Shown: one piece after another, positions 599 to 4,228 of the stretch
How the letters are laid out: every line of letters starts with the position of its first letter
Position numbering within the stretch: position 1 is the stretch's first letter
Assembly (NCBI GenBank): GCA_002163155.1
Contig: MAAO01000016.1
Span: 124,001 to 188,000, forward strand
Origin: Halobacteriovorax marinus
GTDB taxonomy: Bacteria; Bdellovibrionota; Bacteriovoracia; Bacteriovoracales; Bacteriovoracaceae
Direction of reading: 5' to 3'
Length of the DNA stretch: 64,000 nt
Notes under the pieces: model-generated
What the model was told of the DNA's origin: nothing
Database searches by the model: none
Seen by the model: only the letters and a program-made list of their open reading frames with translations
Translations under genes and position numbers: made by a program

Positions 599-828
599 CG
601 CTTCACCCTTATCTTTATTAACATTTAACTTTAATATACGAAGATTAACGTTTACACATAGCTTTCAAAAAGGTCAATGGCCCTTTGCAAAATTTTCCAT
701 AAACTTTTACTATTTTTTGGCCCTGCGAAAAAAACTTTAAGAATTCATTGGAAAAGTTATTGGGCCATGCTACAAAATTGCACCCACACAGGCAGAAGAA
801 CTACACATATTACAGGAGATCGATAGAG

Positions 829-2421
829 ATGAGTCAAGAATTCCCATTCGAACACTTCCTGAAAACAACAAGCAGCACAACTGATGATGTTTTCAATAAT
901 AACAAAAGCTTAAAAGAAATTAAACTAACAAGTACCCCTCCAGTTCAAGCAACAAGTAATAATGACTTAATGCAAGACAATGAGCAGGAAGCCATTTTTT
1001 CTAAAGATGAACTTGAAACTATTGAAGAAAGTTTTCTTGAGTCATTAAAGAACCTTGTAAATCCCCAGAAATATAACGCATATTTCACTGGTGTATTTGA
1101 ATTAACAAATATCACTATGGATTCCATTGTTTTTATTGTTGCAAATTCACTCATCAAGACAATGATTGAAAAAAACTGTATTTCAGAAGTTAGATCAGCC
1201 ATCAAACAAGTTCTTGGTAAAGAATATGAAGTCATAATTAACACTTCAGTTCAATCCACAATAAAAGATAATGAAAATCATCTTACAGCCAAACCAAAAA
1301 CTGCCTCAGAAGCAACATTTACTTTAAACTTATCTCCCACGACTGAAGACAAGCTATCAAAAGTAGAGAGTCAATACATTCAACACATGAGTGACTCTGG
1401 AAACAATATTGATCCATCTAAAACTTTTGATAATTTCATTGTAGGGCCTTCAAACAATTTAGCTCATGCTACAGCACTAGCTATTTCGAGAATGCCAGGA
1501 GACAAAGGTAAATACCCATCTTTATATATCCATTCAAATTCGGGACTCGGAAAGACTCACCTACTCTATGCAGTAGCAAACGGTATAAAAGATAATTTTC
1601 CTCAGTATGTAGTTTACTTAACTACTGCAAGAGACTTCATGAAAGAATACATTGAGTCTGTAAAAACTAAGACCGTTGATGCCTTTCAAGAAAAGTTTAC
1701 TAAGAAAATTGATGTCTTAATGATTGATGATATCCATGAACTAAAAGGCAAAAAAGGAACACAAGATGAACTCTTTCATGTGTTCAATGGCCTATACACC
1801 AATGGAAAACAATTAATATTCACTTCAGACAAAGCCCCTGAAGAAATTGATGGTATCGAAGAAAGAATTAGAACTAGACTTCAGTGGGGCCTAGTAATCG
1901 ATATTCAGAAACCAGATTTTGAAACTAGAACTGCAATATTAAAAAGAAAAGCTTACGAATTAGATCTCTATCTTCAAGAGGATATCTTAACTCTCATAGC
2001 CAACTCAATTAAGGCCAACATCAGAGAACTCGAAGGTTCTCTTGTTAAACTATCTGCTTATGCAGATGTCATGAATGTAGAAGTCGATACTGAAATGGTT
2101 AAAGATATATTAAATATCAGCAACACAGACATGGAAAGAAAGATAACTCTCGACATTGTTGCCAAAGCGACCTCTCAGCACTTTAAAATCCCTATTCCCG
2201 ACTTAAAATCAAAGGCAAGAACAAAAGATATAGTTATTGCTCGCTTCGTAGCCATGTACCTATCTAGAAAGATTGTGAACGCTACCCAAGAAGAAGTAGG
2301 AAAGTTTTATGGTAATCGTGATCATAGTTCAGTTGTTCACGCAGAAAGAACAATAAAAGAAAAAATGATATCAGATTTATCTATATCAAGAAGTCTCGTA
2401 GCAATCGAAAACTCTCTCTAA
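829..2421 (+). CDS. dnaA: Chromosomal replication initiator DnaA
   Basis: AAA+ initiator that binds DnaA boxes and melts oriC, placed directly before the origin. I chose the ATG at 829 (530 residues, MSQEFPFEHF) because AGGAG lies 10 bases upstream; the longer frame from a TTG at 748 has no ribosome-binding site. After an unusual Ser/Thr/Asp-rich N-terminal extension of about 60 residues comes a domain I-like segment (about 65-135). Domain III starts near 200 (TFDNFIVGPSNNLA), with Walker A SGLGKTHLL near 237-244 and Walker B VLMIDDIHEL near 295-303. The DNA-binding signature YGNRDHSSVVHA is near 493-504. It is longer than the usual 440-470 residues. Terminator hairpin follows 26 bases after the stop, so dnaA is transcriptionally separated from dnaN. 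Confidence 0.97.
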   Translation: MSQEFPFEHFLKTTSSTTDDVFNNNKSLKEIKLTSTPPVQATSNNDLMQDNEQEAIFSKDELETIEESFLESLKNLVNPQKYNAYFTGVFELTNITMDSIVFIVANSLIKTMIEKNCISEVRSAIKQVLGKEYEVIINTSVQSTIKDNENHLTAKPKTASEATFTLNLSPTTEDKLSKVESQYIQHMSDSGNNIDPSKTFDNFIVGPSNNLAHATALAISRMPGDKGKYPSLYIHSNSGLGKTHLLYAVANGIKDNFPQYVVYLTTARDFMKEYIESVKTKTVDAFQEKFTKKIDVLMIDDIHELKGKKGTQDELFHVFNGLYTNGKQLIFTSDKAPEEIDGIEERIRTRLQWGLVIDIQKPDFETRTAILKRKAYELDLYLQEDILTLIANSIKANIRELEGSLVKLSAYADVMNVEVDTEMVKDILNISNTDMERKITLDIVAKATSQHFKIPIPDLKSKARTKDIVIARFVAMYLSRKIVNATQEEVGKFYGNRDHSSVVHAERTIKEKMISDLSISRSLVAIENSL

Positions 2422-2447
2422 AATATCTATATTTATAATTACACTCG

Positions 2448-2477
2448 AGGATCTTCTTTATGAAGATCCTTTTTTTT
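2448..2477 (+). terminator. Intrinsic terminator of dnaA
   Basis: A perfect 9-bp stem AGGATCTTC / GAAGATCCT with a 5-base loop is followed by a run of seven or more T residues. It ends the dnaA transcript just before the origin. Confidence 0.9.
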
Positions 2478-2543
2478 ACTTATTCACATTGAATGGCCAA
2501 CTATTAACGTTAATTTATGAATAATTGAGTATTCATATTATTT

Positions 2544-2585
2544 TTATCCACGGCCCCATGTTGATAACCTATACACTTATCCATA
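2544..2585 (+). promoter_or_regulatory. Left DnaA-box cluster
   Basis: Three DnaA-box-like 9-mers lie within 42 bases: TTATCCACG (+), TGTTGATAA (the reverse strand reads TTATCAACA) and TTATCCATA (+). Each differs from TTATCCACA by one base. Spacing and mixed orientation resemble the duplex-binding part of a bipartite origin. Confidence 0.7.
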
Positions 2586-2980
2586 ACTCACGGCCCAAAA
2601 AATTGATTAACAAAATATTCCCAAATGAATGTTAAGAATATTAATAATAAAAACCATGACTTAGATGAGATACTAGAGTTATAAACGGCCGGGGATAACT
2701 TTTATTAACAAGTTAAAACAAGTGAGCAAAATACTTATCAACATGTGTACAACTTGTTAATAAATGAATGGCCAAACCATGAAATTGGAACGAAGCAAAA
2801 GGCCTATTGCGCTACATTGTGAATTAGGCCGTGAATTAGTGAGTAAAAGTACTAACAAATTATGAGTTAAAAAATAATATACGAATCAACATCGAGTAAT
2901 TTAGAAAGTTATCCAAACTCATTCATAATTGCTAAATCAGATAACTATCTATAAATATTAACAAAACATGAGTTACTTAC

Positions 2981-2989
2981 TTATCCACA
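2981..2989 (+). promoter_or_regulatory. Consensus DnaA box beside the unwinding element
   Basis: Exact TTATCCACA, the only perfect box in the interval, positioned immediately left of the AT-only tract. It is the best candidate for the box that guides DnaA onto single-stranded DNA during melting. Confidence 0.8.
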
Positions 2990-2992
2990 GCG

Positions 2993-3032
2993 TATATATA
3001 TATATATAATAATATTTAAATATATATATAAA
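2993..3032 (+). repeat. AT-only tract, probable DNA unwinding element
   Basis: Forty consecutive A/T bases including an 8-unit TA repeat (2993-3008) and a second 5-unit TA run (3021-3030). This is the least stable stretch of the region and borders the consensus DnaA box. Confidence 0.75.
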
Positions 3033-3112
3033 GAAAAGAATTAGAAAACCTCATTGATTTACTAAACCGATAAGGATAAATAATTGTAAGAGAATTTACA
3101 GGAAAGTCGGAT

Positions 3113-4227
3113 ATGAAAATAAAACTTCACGCAGAAGATTTAAAAACAGCATTGAATAAAGTTTTATCGGTTGTTGATAAAAGAAATTCTAGACCTATTT
3201 TAACTTACACGTTGATTGAAGCAACGAACGAACAGTTAAATATTTCAGCTACAGATTTAGAAGTTTCAGCCAAAGTAGTTGTTAACGCTCATGTTGATAA
3301 CCCTGGTAAGTTTTGTGTAAATGCTAAGAATATATTTGATATTTTAAAAGAACTTCCTGGTACAGAAATAGAACTATCACTGGATGACGAATCAAATACT
3401 TTAAAATTAAATTGTGGAGATATTCACTACTCACTTTTAATTTACAAAGCAGATGACTTTCCTCACTTACTTTTCAACCAAGAAGTGAATAAGTTCACAC
3501 TATCCAGTGAACAACTTACAAATATAATTAACAAAACTTCATATGCAGTTTTAAATGACGAAACAAGATTATATTTAAACGGAATTTACCTACAAGAAAT
3601 TGATTCAAAATTAAGAGCTGTAGCAACTGATGGACACAGACTTTCGTTACTAGAAACTGATCTATCAGAAAGCAATAATGAAACTCTGATAAATGGAATT
3701 ATTATTCCAAGAAAAGGAATTTATGAAATTAAGAAAGTTTCTGAAACTTATCCAGAAATAAAAATTGAACTTTCAGTTGATGATACTTTCTTATACATAA
3801 ACGCTAAGAACGAATACTTTCTCTCTGTAAGATTAATTGCAAGAGAATATCCTAAGTATCAAGCAGTAATTCCAAATAAAACTACATACACAATGACAAC
3901 AGATAGAAATTCATTCTTTGATGCAATTAGAAGAATTAAAATTATGTCGAATGAGAAATCAAACGGTGTAAGATTAAAACTTTCAAATCAAGAGATGACG
4001 TTAACTGCTAATCATCCTTCCCTTGGTGAAGCAATGGAAACGATGCCTGTAGATTACAATGGCAAAGACATGGAAATTGGATTCAATGCAAAGTACTTAA
4101 TTGATACTTTACAATCATTTGATGAAGGTGAAATTTCTCTTGAGCTTAATAATGAATTAAGTCCTATAATAATTAAATCTAATTCGCTTCCTAACTATTT
4201 AGGAATCATTATGCCTCTGAAGCTTTA

Positions 4228-4228
<1 letters not shown>
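3113..4228 (+). CDS. dnaN: DNA polymerase III beta sliding clamp
   Basis: The ring-shaped processivity clamp that tethers DNA polymerase III to DNA. The 371-residue length matches the family (about 366-380). Recognisable clamp features include the N-terminal L-x-x-AL-x-x-V-x-x-V-x-x-R---PIL pattern (residues 10-30), LNGIYL in the middle domain, VATDGHRLS (about 168-176) and the C-terminal NYLGIIMPLKL ending like canonical clamps (MPMRL). The ATG at 3113 has AGGAAAG 6 bases upstream. Its stop overlaps the recF start by one base (TAATG), indicating translational coupling in a dnaN-recF-gyrB-gyrA operon. Confidence 0.97.

Follow-up and report, generated by a model that had tools for sequence, protein, structure and literature searches.

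The window analysed here, 64 kb of a Halobacteriovorax marinus contig, contains dnaA (829-2421, plus strand; 530 aa, with the ATG at 829 also the start in homologues) and, downstream of it, dnaN (3113-4228, plus strand). The 691 bp between them (2422-3112, plus strand) are the presumed oriC and occupy the same place as the experimentally studied oriC of Bdellovibrio (PMC5124646, partial text). Two perfect DnaA boxes, both on the plus strand, were found in this region, TTATTCACA at 2480-2488 and TTATCCACA at 2981-2989. The second lies beside an AT-rich stretch; the TATATA-rich sequence at 2994-3040 is the presumed unwinding element and has no GGCC inside.

Seven GGCC tetramers were located in the same intergenic region. 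The first (2495-2498) and fifth (2770-2773) lie within copies of GAATGGCCAA, the third (2592-2595) at the end of TCACGGCC (2588-2595), and the fourth (2687-2690) within TTATAAACGGCCGGGGATAA; the sixth is at 2801-2804. The second (2552-2555) adjoins the core of a DnaA box, so that TTATCCAC plus GGCC occupies 2544-2555 on the plus strand. The seventh (2827-2830) is followed by GTGAATTA, and on the minus strand 2827-2838 reads as TAATTCAC plus GGCC. Three further sites precede dnaA: one at 679-682, one base after a conserved GGTCAA; one at 719-722; and one at 763-766, one base before TGCTACAAA. The original prediction had listed these ten sites at exactly the coordinates found here. The extended repeats that it described are also real, but three of their four starts were off by one: GAATGGCCAA begins at 2491 and 2766, and CACGGCCC at 2549 and 2589, the last three each one base lower than had been given.

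Seven GGCC in the intergenic region compare with 0.25 expected from base composition (Poisson p = 1e-8) and with 0.49 from a first-order Markov model. For the roughly 340 bases that hold the seven, the composition-based expectation is 0.22, in agreement with the claim that chance would give well under one. The description of those bases as very AT-rich was overstated (32% GC, against 34% for the window); the intergenic region as a whole is 27% GC. As a genomic background we sampled 464 kb, made up of the window and twenty 20-kb stretches. At the intergenic rate of the organism's own genome, 0.71 GGCC would be expected between dnaA and dnaN (p = 1e-5), and of the 207 intergenic segments in the sample the origin had the lowest GGCC p value. 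Other intergenic DNA, put forward with the original prediction as the comparison to make, is thus far below the origin in GGCC density and not equal to it. The raw count is not unique: seven GGCC also start within another 340-bp interval of the sample (44% GC), and several such intervals contain six. Spaced triples of GGCC occurred at 49 places in the genome, as compared to 10 for a reversed control pattern.

GGCC at origins across the family

Bacteriovoracaceae is a family related to the predatory Bdellovibrio. Of the 118 genomes in the order that carry dnaA, we read the dnaA locus in 90, together with that of 20 of 22 genomes from other families of the phylum. Genomes with no usable dnaN were omitted from the origin count (8/90, including L007 with 3 GGCC and L132 with 6, and 5/20), and those with no upstream DNA from the upstream count (3/90 on the family side and 3/20 of the others). 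The 82 remaining Bacteriovoracaceae origins contain 245 GGCC where 24.2 are expected, which makes it the top of 136 tetramers; the second, CCAC of the DnaA box, is enriched 5.6-fold. GGCC was likewise the top tetramer over the 220 bp upstream of dnaA (87 family genomes; 119 sites, 18.4 expected). No excess was observed in the other families, either at origins (5 against 6.5 expected, n = 15) or upstream of dnaA (9 against 9.9, n = 17). The difference in rate between the family and the others has p = 2e-19 when genomes are counted as if unrelated, which is repaired in part at the genus level, where 28 of 37 genera have more GGCC than expected and nine lack it. Conservation in related origins, the other comparison proposed at the outset, thus holds for the enrichment in this family.

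Individual origins vary. At least one GGCC was present in 60 of the 82 and at least three in 35, with a maximum of 17; 25 origins have only one or two. Twenty-two have none, although the methyltransferase described below is family-wide; initiation thus cannot depend on a GGCC mark in every member of the family. Single sites also shift between congeners, TCACGGCC at 2588-2595 being kept in all five aligned genomes of the genus.

Within the intergenic region the sites are unevenly placed. In 71 of 82 family origins the AT-richest 40-mer falls between 0.7 and 0.9 of the way along the region, and 228 of the 245 GGCC lie in the dnaA-proximal first 0.7, away from that stretch. Sixty-five of the 245 adjoin a DnaA-box core (at most one mismatch), as compared to 2.2% of all positions. 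Viewed from the boxes, GGCC directly follows 68 of 1009 in the family and 0 of 150 elsewhere. In such composites GGCC replaces the A of position 9, which is conserved in DnaA boxes (PMC5124646, partial text).

The region before dnaA

Any GGCC at all was found before dnaA in 63/87 family genomes and 8/17 others, and the longer GGCCNTGNTA in 31/87 and 0/17, respectively. Ten upstream regions were picked by hand and aligned; L010, L016, and L023, whose upstream GGCC stand in other contexts, were left out. One GGCC is invariant in the ten, one base before TG-TA, and GGTCAA is invariant as well. The TG-TA element, represented in the window by TGCTACAAA after the third pre-dnaA site, may be an extended -10 of dnaA, and GGTCAA (in reverse, TTGACC) may be the -35 of a divergent rpmH promoter. 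A sigma-70 scan of the region before dnaA returned no site, so the promoter reading rests on the conserved TG-TA columns of the alignment.

Two minor observations belong here. GGTCAA lies before dnaA in 65/87 family genomes and 0/17 others (window 660-690). The genome also encodes a second DnaA-like protein of 388 aa (G000:C1:1082289-1083455, equivalent to L297:1289-2455) with the DnaA ATPase and DNA-binding domains; similar second DnaA matches were present in several other genomes of the family.

A candidate methyltransferase

A single cytosine-C5 methyltransferase is encoded in the genome, outside the window, at G000:C12:24289-25437. It scored 247 bits against PF00145 (cut-off 22) and 208 bits against TIGR00675 (cut-off 100.65). 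Cytosine-C5 DNA methyltransferases are defined by the catalytic motifs PCQ and ENV, and PPCQGFS and ENVTG were found in 31/31 aligned sequences of the enzyme. It was detected in 37/37 family genomes and 2/22 others; in the order as a whole it was present in 126/129 genomes (two by weak matches alone) and in 73/73 good ones. In a search of the phylum at E 1e-30, matches were obtained in 124/129 family genomes and 7/239 others, the latter at no more than 34% identity. Several family genomes have second copies (e.g. G013, G102). Enzyme distances track DnaA distances (25 genomes; Mantel r = 0.69, p = 0.001). The enzyme is present throughout the lineage and, by these distances, vertically inherited.

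In the 4-kb locus of the organism's own copy, the one copy scanned, no restriction gene adjoins the methyltransferase. The neighbours, named by eye, are tRNA-thiolation-like, Ppx/GppA-like, and hydrolase-like proteins, along with a 218-aa protein that had no Pfam match above cut-off. Over 31 loci the tRNA-thiolation-like gene recurred 23 times (within 1.5 kb), the 218-aa protein 16 times, and the Ppx/GppA-like gene 10 times; in L031 the first two are at 1-612 and 738-1394. Relatives on plasmids and phages all fall below 60% identity, the best among the matches listed being 36-39%, and of the 80 of 548 relatives kept from a viral scan none is above 39%. Two plasmid or phage relatives adjoin NotI-family restriction genes, and their recognition domains are by eye unlike that of the family enzyme. 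Known NotI-family sites contain GGCC.

The recognition domain is conserved within the family: RFRQT is invariant in 10 sequences, with RLRQ or RFRQC in 4/31. A structure model of the enzyme from a congener (L062) adopts the C5-methyltransferase fold over nearly its whole length, with fold matches to DNMT1 (Z 35.0), 3g7u (Z 34.1), and M.HaeIII (Z 32.8; 33% identity over 285 aligned residues). The core of the model is good; residues 251-270, in the recognition domain, have pLDDT below 50. In sequence searches only the catalytic parts aligned to M.HaeIII, the recognition domain staying unaligned. The residue corresponding to M.HaeIII Arg225 is presumably Glu in the family enzyme. Arg225 reads the first G of the M.HaeIII site (PMC11879396, partial text). 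Since the recognition domain is partly unreliable in the model, we infer the GGCC specificity of the enzyme from co-distribution only. The proposed search for a GGCC methyltransferase accordingly led to a conserved cytosine-C5 enzyme in the same genomes, with GGCC as its putative target.

Another candidate, an N6/N4-type DNA methyltransferase of PF01555 (G000:C7:36636-37271, also in G001-G004 and thus in all 5 genomes of the genus), was rejected as a family-wide writer; it was above cut-off in 25 of 59 genomes and is patchy in the family.

A possible role in replication

The packing of GGCC at the origin, taken with a lone family-wide cytosine methyltransferase, suggests a mark that helps to time replication. 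In the version that we tentatively favour, and to which we would give somewhat less than an even chance, the core C5 enzyme has GGCC as its target, and the GGCC clusters in oriC and the dnaA promoter tie methylation to the binding of DnaA and the expression of dnaA. The idea of a methylation target in the original prediction is upheld in part, by the density of the sites, their enrichment in the family, their information-poor flanks, and the conserved C5 enzyme.

The order of events would be as follows: the core methyltransferase of Bacteriovoracaceae would methylate GGCC, concentrated as it is in the part of oriC that carries the DnaA boxes and in the promoter of dnaA, and passage of the replication fork would turn both from fully methylated to hemimethylated. 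At oriC, hemimethylation may alter the loading of DnaA where GGCC occupies a DnaA box from position 9 onward. DnaA itself might sense the mark at these composite sites, in which case binding to TTATCCACGGCC may differ between the methylated and unmethylated forms. Before dnaA, hemimethylation could alter transcription through the GGCC just ahead of the putative -10. Alternatively, a separate (putative) reader protein would recognize the hemimethylated state. The outcome would be to limit initiation, as Dam, GATC, and SeqA do in E. coli.

A stricter form of the proposal, that the GGCC mark at oriC and the dnaA promoter is a C5 counterpart of Dam/SeqA whose hemimethylated state licenses or blocks initiation, we regard as rather unlikely; such a system might perhaps also mark a plasmid-like partition region of the same genome (G000:C14:11026-11135, described below).

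Alternative explanations

GGCC is frequent well beyond the origin. The window contains 104, as compared to 57 in shuffles, and in the 464-kb sample GGCC is the top tetramer both in genes (976 against 460, 2.1-fold) and in other intergenic DNA (62 against 21.4, 2.9-fold), while CCGG and CGCG are under expectation. Part of the origin signal is thus genome-wide background. In a codon-shuffle test the excess was 1.6-2.6-fold in genes of the family and 1.2-fold in those of other families, where GGCC is likewise the top palindrome, yet at just 105 against 86. A 1.78-fold coding excess was also seen in family genomes whose oriC lacks GGCC, so the origin clusters are an addition to a trait of the whole family. 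These observations, together with the over-represented palindromes of cyanobacteria (PMC4390886, partial text), favour an explanation in which the core enzyme methylates GGCC, repair or selection enriches it, and the sites are densest at the origin simply because they are best tolerated there, with no role in timing. Against such an explanation, the origin had the lowest Poisson p among sampled intergenic segments in 6/6 genomes (G000, G001, G003, G015, G017, and G136, the last three chosen for high GGCC counts). In these six GGCC is 10-28-fold over expectation at oriC and 2.3-5.1-fold in other intergenic DNA, and each origin exceeds the intergenic rate of its own genome (p 1e-3 to 5e-8). The sites moreover avoid the unwinding end of the region and favour DnaA boxes, and GGCCNTGNTA recurs before dnaA. 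We consider enrichment by tolerance unlikely, if still a serious competitor.

As a cause of the genome-wide excess, very-short-patch repair was rejected: of 59 genomes, 2 gave a Vsr match, neither of them in the genus. Between the congeners G001 and G003, coding GGCC was kept no better (26-33%) than AGCT (29-30%), a weak test at 76% identity, and a comparison of the same pair for a deamination footprint at GGCC gave no clear pattern, the divergence being too great to judge.

GGCC could instead be the core sequence that a protein of the family binds, be it an origin regulator or a nucleoid protein, with methylation unrelated. Composite TTATYCAC plus GGCC sites and the recurrent sites in the dnaA promoter would fit a bound protein, as would the spacing: pairs 10-12 bp apart number 19 where 6.7 are expected, longer spacings occurring at about 1.2 to 2 times expectation. 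The 11-bp spacing could, however, stem from repeated units of box plus GGCC, and an excess in coding DNA across the genome fits a regulator badly. No flanking position of the 245 sites carries more than 0.11 bit, so little is shared beyond the tetramer; this is unusual for a regulator site, although pooling both orientations, as was done here, dilutes one-sided flanks. On balance a protein site of this kind seems improbable.

A preference of the family's DnaA for boxes that end in G(GCC), so that GGCC simply marks DnaA boxes, would account for the sites that adjoin a box core. It is very doubtful even so, as 176 of the 245 have no adjoining CAC or GTG and the last base is still A in 724 of the family's 1009 boxes; as the whole story, a DnaA-box variant was ruled out by those 176. 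Chance or base composition can explain some of the excess as background (the first-order Markov expectation over the 82 origins is 47.7) but is scarcely credible for 245 sites, above expectation in so many genera and with no excess in other families.

Comparison with known methylation systems

In E. coli, SeqA reads GATC at eleven sites in oriC and at eight more by dnaA (PMC10073500, partial text). The coupling of methylation to DnaA that we favour resembles that system in the clustering of a short palindrome in oriC and the dnaA promoter (here as family totals, with none in 22 of 82 origins) and, like Dam, it involves a lineage-wide methyltransferase with no restriction partner. Unlike Dam, which methylates adenine at N6, the enzyme belongs to the cytosine-C5 family, and the tetramer is GGCC rather than GATC; its number, in contrast to that of GATC in E. 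coli, ranges from 0 to 17 between genomes. CcrM, which acts at GANTC in Caulobacter and its relatives, is a core lineage methyltransferase tied to the cell cycle. The family enzyme is similarly the core methyltransferase of a bacterial lineage, whereas CcrM is an adenine methyltransferase of another motif and acts on promoters such as ctrA.

Cytosine systems offer looser parallels. The fold of the family enzyme is that of M.HaeIII, with GGCC the proposed target here, but the organism's own copy has no adjoining restriction gene, unlike M.HaeIII-type enzymes of restriction systems. In cyanobacteria, the over-representation of HIP1 and alternate highly iterated palindromes goes hand in hand with a methyltransferase (PMC4390886, partial text). 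GGCC is likewise a GC-rich palindrome over-represented genome-wide alongside a methyltransferase of presumed specificity; unlike HIP, it is about 2-fold over expectation in genes but 10-28-fold at oriC (six genomes). In Synechocystis, GGCC methylation by M.Ssp6803II (GGm4CC) was linked to promoter activity and the fine-tuning of replication (PMC6560206, partial text). M.Ssp6803II is, unlike the enzyme described here, an N4-methylcytosine enzyme, and neither oriC nor DnaA is mentioned in the text of that paper.

Among methylation-based controls of the origin, those that use adenine are the best known (PMC10073500, partial text), and N4-cytosine methylation of GGCC in Synechocystis has a looser link to replication (PMC6560206, partial text). 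In the open-licence literature we found no report on methylation in Bacteriovorax, Bdellovibrio, or Bacteriovoracaceae, or on cytosine methylation at oriC. A 2023 review says that Bdellovibrio had as yet no identified regulator of replication initiation, and its authors asked whether an origin licensing system exists (PMC11318664, partial text). If true, a family-wide cytosine-C5 mark at oriC would represent a new route of origin control. An enzyme, a motif, and sites can now be named, and the proposal is testable in cultured Bacteriovorax.

A second GGCC array

Eight GGCC spaced 15-16 bp apart were located on a 54-kb contig of the same genome (G000:C14:11026-11135, equivalent to L301:1026-1135). 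The units are mostly TGGGGCC or resemble CGGGGCC, with variable spacers. The array adjoins a minus-strand gene of the ParA family and is possibly a plasmid partition or origin region. It is followed by a long open reading frame that had no Pfam match, the first called ATG of which lies inside the array, so part of the array may be coding.
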